Position numbers and translations under genes: made by a program. Below are positions 22,286-23,687 of a stretch of DNA of 32,050 nucleotides, in pieces; position 1 is the stretch's first letter; every line of letters begins with the position of its first letter. The stretch covers positions 1 through 32,050 of the IMG/VR virus record IMGVR_UViG_3300042448_001750; one strand, written 5' to 3'. The DNA comes from a virus. The notes beneath the pieces were generated by a model that had not been told where the DNA came from, ran no database searches, and was given only the letters and a program-made list of their open reading frames with translations.

Positions 22286-22333
22286 AAATAAAAAGAGGGA
22301 AAGAAAATAACGTTAAATTATTCTTTCCCTCTT
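22286..22333 (-). terminator. strong terminator of the large RNA
   Basis: Perfect 13-bp stem AAGAGGGAAAGAA/TTCTTTCCCTCTT with a 15-nt loop. On the minus strand it is followed by a T-rich tract (TTTATTTTATTC). The plus-strand side has no T-run, which fixes the direction. Confidence 0.88.
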
Positions 22334-22705
22334 GTTTGTCCTAGGAATCTAAACCTACCGAGTCGTTAGTGAGACAACTACAGAACCCTATATCGTCGGG
22401 TGGTGACTAGTATTCACGACTTTATTTTTTTTTAGTGTTTCTTTTATTTAGACTAAAACACCGTGGTTATAAAAGTTTCCACATCTAAAAAGCGTCCTTG
22501 CCCGATTTTTTTCTCAAACTCCTTCAGTCTTCGGATGACACCTCAAGTTAACAATCATTTTTTATTAATTTTTAAGGGTTAAAATAGGTAGTTATCTGTT
22601 AAGAAACAATCACCTAAAACCTTAAAGAATGTTTAGAAGAACCTTTTATACTCATAACTTCTCGGAATATCTTTAATTACCGACTTCTTTTGTATTGGAG
22701 TCACT

Positions 22706-22781
22706 TGGTTGCGGGAGAAGGATTCGAACCTTCGACCTTCAGGTTATGAGCCTGACGAGCTACCAACTGCTCTATCCCACT
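22706..22781 (-). tRNA. tRNA-Met(CAT), initiator-like
   Basis: A full cloverleaf with encoded CCA (22708-22706). The acceptor pairs AGTGGGA with TCCCGCA, leaving A1-A72 unpaired. The D arm GAGC/GCTC gives A11-U24. The anticodon loop is CTCATAA with a TCAGG/CCTGA stem. The T arm is GAAGG/TTCGAAT/CCTTC. The 1-72 mismatch and A11-U24 are hallmarks of bacterial initiator tRNA, and the D-to-anticodon region closely follows E. coli tRNA-fMet. The deviation is A29-U41 where initiators usually have the third G-C pair. It lies inside the large RNA and must be excised from it if both come from one transcript. Confidence 0.93.
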
Positions 22782-23687
22782 ATATGGCTAAGGCTGAGAT
22801 TATACCTTTTATTTGAGAACCTTTAGAGTCATTATTGTTTCTACTCTTATCCACTTCCTTTTGAGAAGTATTTCTCAGTGACGGTTATTTAAGTGAACCA
22901 CTCTTTGAGGTTTTGGTTACTCTCCAATTACTCAACTCTCCTTGAGGATGCCTCCCCAACACGTCCTTGCGGGACTAGAGGTCTTTGGTAAAATTACAGT
23001 CAGACTTGGGGTCTTTCTGTGCAATGAACGGCTCATTACTATGTAGTCACCTTTCACCAAAACCTGGTAGACACTTTTCCTTTATTTTCTTAAATGTTAC
23101 TTCAATAATAGTAAAGTTTTGTGTCGTGGATGTATCGAAGTAGTGGTCTACCCTAAGCTCCATTTCCTTTTGAGAAACAGAATACTAAACTACTCCGTGA
23201 GATATCCCTACCTCCATTCTTCAAGTTTACTTCATACCACAACCTTGGTGGGTTGTTAGTAAGGATAGTAGCGACACCACTCGTTCTCTATCTTACCTTT
23301 CGGTTTTAAGTCCACTTTTGAATTGGAACCCGCAATTGTGAAGTTGGATAACTACACTTCTTACTTGATTCCTATGGGTTATTTTTATTGGTGTTCCCAC
23401 CTCAACCGAACAATCCACATTGCTCAGTCACCCAACCACTTTCCCTAAAGCGTCGCCCTCAGTACTGAAGGTCGGATGATATCCCACTTGTATACTCGAG
23501 TTCAAATCCCCTTTCGGGTTTCTAAACCGCAACCTCCTCAACACGGGGGAAGTCACTTTATCCTTGTTTCCAAGTTTATTTAAGGACCATATACGGCCCA
23601 ATATCTTTTATCAGTTTCATTTCTTACTCCTGAATGGATATTCTAATTTTTCAAAGAACGTTATCGGACGTTTCCGATTTTGTTTTA

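Follow-up and report, generated by a model that had tools for sequence, protein, structure and literature searches.

GOLLD, a tRNA-Met, and an apparently undescribed structured RNA in series at a T4-like phage locus

The RNA locus and its neighbors

The stretch of DNA analyzed here as a whole (the window) is a 32,050-base IMG/VR virus record encoding a T4-type portal, a terminase, a head (prohead) protease, two RNA ligases, and a ClpA-like AAA protein, and it belongs to a T4-like phage. The host is probably a member of the Bacteroidota, as indicated by the Bacteroidota-type promoter boxes and by the CHU_C domain, a type IX secretion signal, encoded in a neighboring gene. On the minus strand, positions 23681-22286 are predicted to be a single non-coding transcription unit of ~1.4 kb that carries three RNAs in series, GOLLD, a tRNA-Met, and a further structured RNA, here named the tail. 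No open reading frame of at least 60 amino acids lies within 22286-23563 on either strand, and the sole one touching the region, 23564-23785 on the plus strand, crosses the promoters.

Bacteroidota-type -7 boxes (TAnnTTTG) are found on the minus strand at 23695-23688 and 23802-23795, with a third at ~24058. The proximal promoter (23688-23719) combines TTTG at -33 with the -7 box TAACTTTG, giving a predicted RNA start of ~23682, and the distal -7 box reads TATCTTTG (23795-23802). These boxes sit in blocks of ~59 bp with 80% identity between repeats; two or three copies of the block precede GOLLD (23688-24058, minus strand), a tandem layout that recurs in most relatives. TAnnTTTG lies -443 to -519 from the GOLLD core in all homologs with sufficient upstream DNA, the exceptions being the huge phages L002 and L003, and since its position is kept, the proximal box is the likely start, near 23682, and the length of GOLLD is then ~890 nt. 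The unit is closed by an intrinsic terminator with a perfect 13-bp stem and a T tract (22286-22332, minus strand), which is kept after the tail in relatives. There is no terminator between GOLLD, tRNA-Met, and tail within the unit, and no promoter box was found at the tail start.

The original prediction, made from the letters of this region, was a giant structured RNA of about 1.4 kb with no credible protein gene, read from two Bacteroidota-type promoters to a perfect 13-bp terminator on the same strand. All of these elements stand, and its coordinates agree closely with the start and end predicted here. The giant RNA itself survives as one transcription unit, but one made up of three RNAs in series, including a tRNA-Met at 22781-22706.

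A phage tmRNA (20044-20442, plus strand; RF00023, 75 bits) converges on the unit. It has an encoded CCA and a tag frame, GNVLNKMAAIGLIREDAAVVA, that ends AAVVA, and it was missed by ARAGORN. In 38 of the 38 GOLLD-bearing records examined, the window included, the tmRNA is convergent and downstream of GOLLD, at 139-3482 bp; some relatives keep the tmRNA with no GOLLD detected. Two further neighbors were recorded. Downstream of the RNA unit, three frames in a row (20476-22206, minus strand) resemble one secreted protein split up, in the order of an N-terminal part with a signal-peptide-like start (judged by eye), PKD_6, and the CHU_C type IX secretion signal; the product may be a phage-borne cargo of the host type IX system, perhaps broken by frameshifts or sequencing errors. 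At 15685-17715 on the plus strand lies the ClpA-like double-AAA protein, which has at least hundreds of close relatives in viral contigs, the best 80 being 74-97% identical. Together with the tmRNA, it could constitute a phage tagging-and-unfolding pathway.

The window encodes a clear GOLLD RNA

The RNA predicted at 23682-22791 (minus strand, ~890 nt) is a clear member of GOLLD. Its 3' domain (22791-23197, minus strand) matches RF02032 end to end, over model positions 1-416, with 322.6 bits against a gathering score of 150 (E 6.6e-92), and the remaining full GOLLDs found in this analysis score 207-331 bits. ROOL, searched for at both the gathering and a permissive threshold, gave no covariance-model match, and neither did OLE. 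The choice originally offered, between a far member of the GOLLD or ROOL classes and a new class, thus comes out as GOLLD followed by a new tail; the GOLLD is not far, and ROOL is not involved. A DNA pattern, GAGTTGAGTAATNNNNNGAGTA, was also tried as a GOLLD finder, and it returned four loci, none of which (0/4) is GOLLD by RF02032.

The RF02032 model represents the GOLLD 3' domain only, and we examined the 5' domain through homologs. Phage contigs related by the ClpA-like gene were searched for GOLLD, and 21 non-redundant full-length copies were aligned (alignment A2). The consensus fold has 239 pairs and an energy of -347 kcal/mol; 96.4% of cells at these pairs are paired across the 21 sequences as compared to 82.8% in shuffles, both sides have changed at 146 of the 239 pairs where 85.5 are expected, and the score for covariation reaches 0.457, falling to 0.195 when shuffled and to 0.065-0.102 with slid partners. 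The hairpins noticed at first from the letters are therefore real. GOLLDs have a structured, less conserved 5' domain of ~400-500 nt, and the counterpart here is ~485 nt (23198-23682, minus strand), lies outside the Rfam model, is homologous in more than 20 phages, and has consensus helices 1-24 that covary among the 21 homologs. These helices (A2 columns 22-620) behave as those of the 3' domain do, both domains covarying strongly. Covariation and a conserved protein frame had been named as the two decisive observations for this region; the former is present and the latter absent.

Within the 3' domain, an A/U-rich variable linker (23080-23135, minus strand; A2 columns 634-690) is poorly conserved and here contains no tRNA. 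Several relatives (L096 and L110-L113) have a terminator immediately 3' of the GOLLD core, so GOLLD alone is predicted to be a complete transcript there. The huge phages L002 (LR745206, 634 kb) and L003 (LR756502, 642 kb) carry a GOLLD whose 5' domain is partly alignable to that of the window, followed by different tRNA-like sequences 3' of the core and no tail.

Directly 3' of GOLLD, beginning 9 nt past the core, is an initiator-like tRNA-Met(CAT) (22706-22781, minus strand). In its sequence, A1 and A72 are unpaired and A11 pairs with U24, which are features of initiator tRNAs. The tRNA of the relatives L104, L106, and L214 is less initiator-like or decayed. In L183-L187, the 5' half of the tRNA-Met has given way to an open frame similar to GIY-YIG/NUMOD3 (homing-endonuclease-like), with the tail intact.

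The tail is a conserved structured RNA

The tail extends over ~415 nt 3' of GOLLD (22291-22706, minus strand) and is homologous to DNA 3' of GOLLD in other phages; in L090, L091, L094, L095, L098, and L099, it comes directly after GOLLD without a tRNA. It is a separate, apparently undescribed structured RNA that forms five or more hairpins, and several of these covary. No Rfam 15 family reaches its gathering score over the tail in the window, where the sub-threshold matches are by chance, or in L094, L104, L108, and L215, and among the phage-record matches listed by blastn for the whole region, none falls in the tail. We also considered a duplicated GOLLD as its source and rejected it, with no homology seen between the two and the tail profile matching tails only. 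The excess length that had been taken as a hint of a new class is accounted for by the downstream tRNA-Met and this second structured RNA.

Our comparison used 13 non-redundant tail sequences (97%), plus the divergent L214 and L215, which were found adjoining GOLLD. Among the invariant blocks are the 5'-terminal AGTGA, TGTGG...ATNACCAC, and the loop TCAC(T/A); the stems vary with pairing retained. Hairpin H6 (GTTG-TCTCACTAA-CGAC, 22362-22378, minus strand) has a near-constant 9-nt loop, UNUCACUAA (ACUCACUAU in L214), on stems that vary from GTTG/CGAC to ACTTTTG/CAAAAGT, TCGG/CTGA, GTAATG/CATTAC, and TTAATT/AATTAA. It pairs only in register (49/52), and its covariation of 0.730, as compared to 0.219 for shuffles, is reached by 0 of 500 shuffles. 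The arms of H5 (ACCC-GACGATATA-GGGT, 22385-22401, minus strand) occur as ACCC/GGGT, ACCT/AGGT, AACT/AGTT, and ACCA/TGGT around ACG.. loops; 50/52 pair in register, but no more than 33/52 once the arms are slid. A covariance model (R1) of the tail 3' domain (22340-22486, minus strand), comprising hairpins H4, H4b, H5, H6, and H7, recovers the held-out L215 at an E of 8e-4; its matches to L211 (E 0.013), G035 (E 0.002), and second places in L183, L215, and L094 were judged to be chance.

Taken jointly on an imperfect alignment, five tail hairpins have a covariation of 0.317 versus 0.154 shuffled (0/500). Covariation of hairpin H3 is not above shuffles, and pairing in the 5' half of the tail is weaker and partly clade-specific. 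Hairpins were counted on anchored or re-aligned segments; RNAalifold on the 12-sequence tail alignment returns just 21 pairs because MAFFT misplaces some arms. The folding energy of the window's tail alone (MFE) is mildly unusual (z -1.59), and since this is weak, the case for structure rests on covariation. The complementarity of AGTGA at the 5' end to UCACU in the H6 loop, present and nearly invariant in all tails, suggests that these two segments may pair.

The tail is found only beside GOLLD

Scanning IMG/VR viral contigs with tail-motif patterns alone returned 30 unseen contigs. GOLLD scored above the cut-off in 28 of them, and in 28 of these 28, the tail lies 3' of GOLLD on the same strand, with a core-to-motif distance of 233-310 nt, or 868 nt with an endonuclease insert. 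The other 2 motif matches, L138 and L150, are chance occurrences in coding-type DNA with no GOLLD. The tail profile, applied to 2.2 Mb of loci, detected no tail separate from GOLLD, and the tail covariance model found none besides the known tails in 42 whole records. The motif also occurs in 18 contigs of bacterial genomes, of which 0/18 are supported by the tail profile, all being chance. The sample behind these counts consists of contig fragments, many near-identical, from about six to seven lineages, gathered by one gene or one motif.

GOLLD does not require the tail, which is missing from roughly two thirds of the GOLLD-bearing relatives. In L097, the tail is absent between flanks ~95% identical to those of L094 and L099. 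A GOLLD that lacks the tail is closed by its own terminator, situated within ~20-130 nt of the core or behind the tRNA; in tail-bearing GOLLDs, the first terminator is at the tail end. With no terminator before the tail end, no promoter box at the tail start, and relatives that have a bare terminator instead, these genomes argue that the tail is an optional cassette co-transcribed as a 3' module of GOLLD.

Expression and possible roles of the tail

GOLLD is among the few known RNA-only cages. The env-38 GOLLD is a homo-14-mer forming a 14-copy hollow cage (Kretsch et al. 2025, PMC12286853), with an intermolecular kissing loop between L20 and J13/15 and with palindromic L21 loops. GOLLD bound ribosomes in a pull-down, the single link to ribosomes that is reported (cited in PMC12286853). 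If the window's locus works as its layout predicts, host or phage-modified RNA polymerase would produce one ~1.4-kb RNA from the proximal promoter, in the order GOLLD (~890 nt), tRNA-Met, tail (~415 nt), and terminator. RNase P and a tRNA 3'-end nuclease would then cut at the tRNA, trimming the GOLLD 3' end to a few nt beyond its last helix and setting the tail free as an RNA of its own. Where a relative has no tRNA, GOLLD and tail would remain fused, or another cleavage would separate them. By analogy with env-38, the window's GOLLD monomers would assemble into a 14-copy hollow cage.

How the tail relates to such a cage can be read in several ways. In the main rival explanation, which we regard as somewhat doubtful while giving it serious weight, the tail acts as a small RNA in its own right, such as a regulator or decoy aimed at the host; it borrows the promoter of GOLLD and the processing sites at the tRNA and has no functional tie to the cage. 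tRNA processing would indeed free it in the window and in most tRNA-bearing relatives, it is a presence/absence cassette, and GOLLD persists in tail-less relatives. However, the tail was never encountered away from GOLLD in the loci, whole records, and bacterial motif contigs searched; in relatives without the tRNA, moreover, only a few nt join it to GOLLD.

The tail could instead be a remnant or a regulatory 3' UTR, such as a long attenuator or an anti-exonuclease structure, which would shield the GOLLD transcript or bring it to an end. It does end in a terminator, and tail-less relatives have a short one at the same place, but the length and loop conservation go far beyond the needs of termination or protection: the UCACU loop is near-invariant, as is the motif TGTGG...ATAACCAC, with stems changing elsewhere. 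We consider this unlikely. One promoter region, one terminator, and one strand would also suit a single continuous giant RNA of a new class spanning the entire 1.4 kb, a reading we give very little credence given that GOLLD is a clear Rfam member, that the unit is interrupted by a tRNA, and that its parts are gained and lost independently in relatives.

We are fairly confident in the overall explanation, a GOLLD locus yielding one ~1.4-kb RNA with the tail as an optional 3' module. The constant neighborhood hints that the tail works for the cage system. Within that explanation, we tentatively propose that the tail is an accessory module of this system, made alongside the GOLLD monomer to serve as its RNA partner, whether attached or captured, at a site given over to translation RNAs (tRNA-Met and tmRNA) during infection. 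It is likewise possible, at a similarly cautious level, that the tail is a new RNA class functioning solely in partnership with the GOLLD cage, either as a 3' domain or as a captured RNA in up to 14 copies per cage, and that the locus couples a nanocage RNA to an initiator-like tRNA and a tmRNA and hence to ribosome handling in infection.

GOLLD was already known; the tail RNA and the steady pairing of GOLLD with tmRNA are new. Always adjoining GOLLD and apparently expressed with it in one phage clade, the tail is a concrete candidate for a cage partner or cargo, and the natural tail-plus and tail-minus relatives are ready comparisons. The conserved convergent tmRNA and the adjoining Met tRNA add to the pull-down, the sole reported GOLLD-ribosome link (cited in PMC12286853).

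Comparison with known RNA cages

ROOL, another cage-forming RNA (PMC12286853), is large, encoded by phages, and located near tRNAs, and the window's RNA shares the last three of these traits. The tail resembles both GOLLD and ROOL in style, with many small hairpins, A-rich joints, and near-constant loops that may make long-range contacts.

With GOLLD (RF02032; env-38), the window shares a full-length 3'-domain match, a variable structured 5' domain, a length of ~890 nt, a phage genome, an adjoining Met tRNA, and an A-rich variable linker. GOLLDs are phage-encoded and often near tRNAs, as here, where the genome encodes a portal, terminase, prohead protease, and RNA ligases, and the tRNA-Met begins 9 nt past the core. 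In env-38, the linker is disordered and faces the cage interior, and tRNAs are sometimes located in the GOLLD linker (PMC12286853). The tRNA of the window lies downstream of GOLLD, neither upstream as in env-38 nor in the linker. The window's GOLLD further differs in its Bacteroidota phage-clade promoter and sequence, in the 415-nt unnamed RNA that comes next, and in the convergent phage tmRNA.
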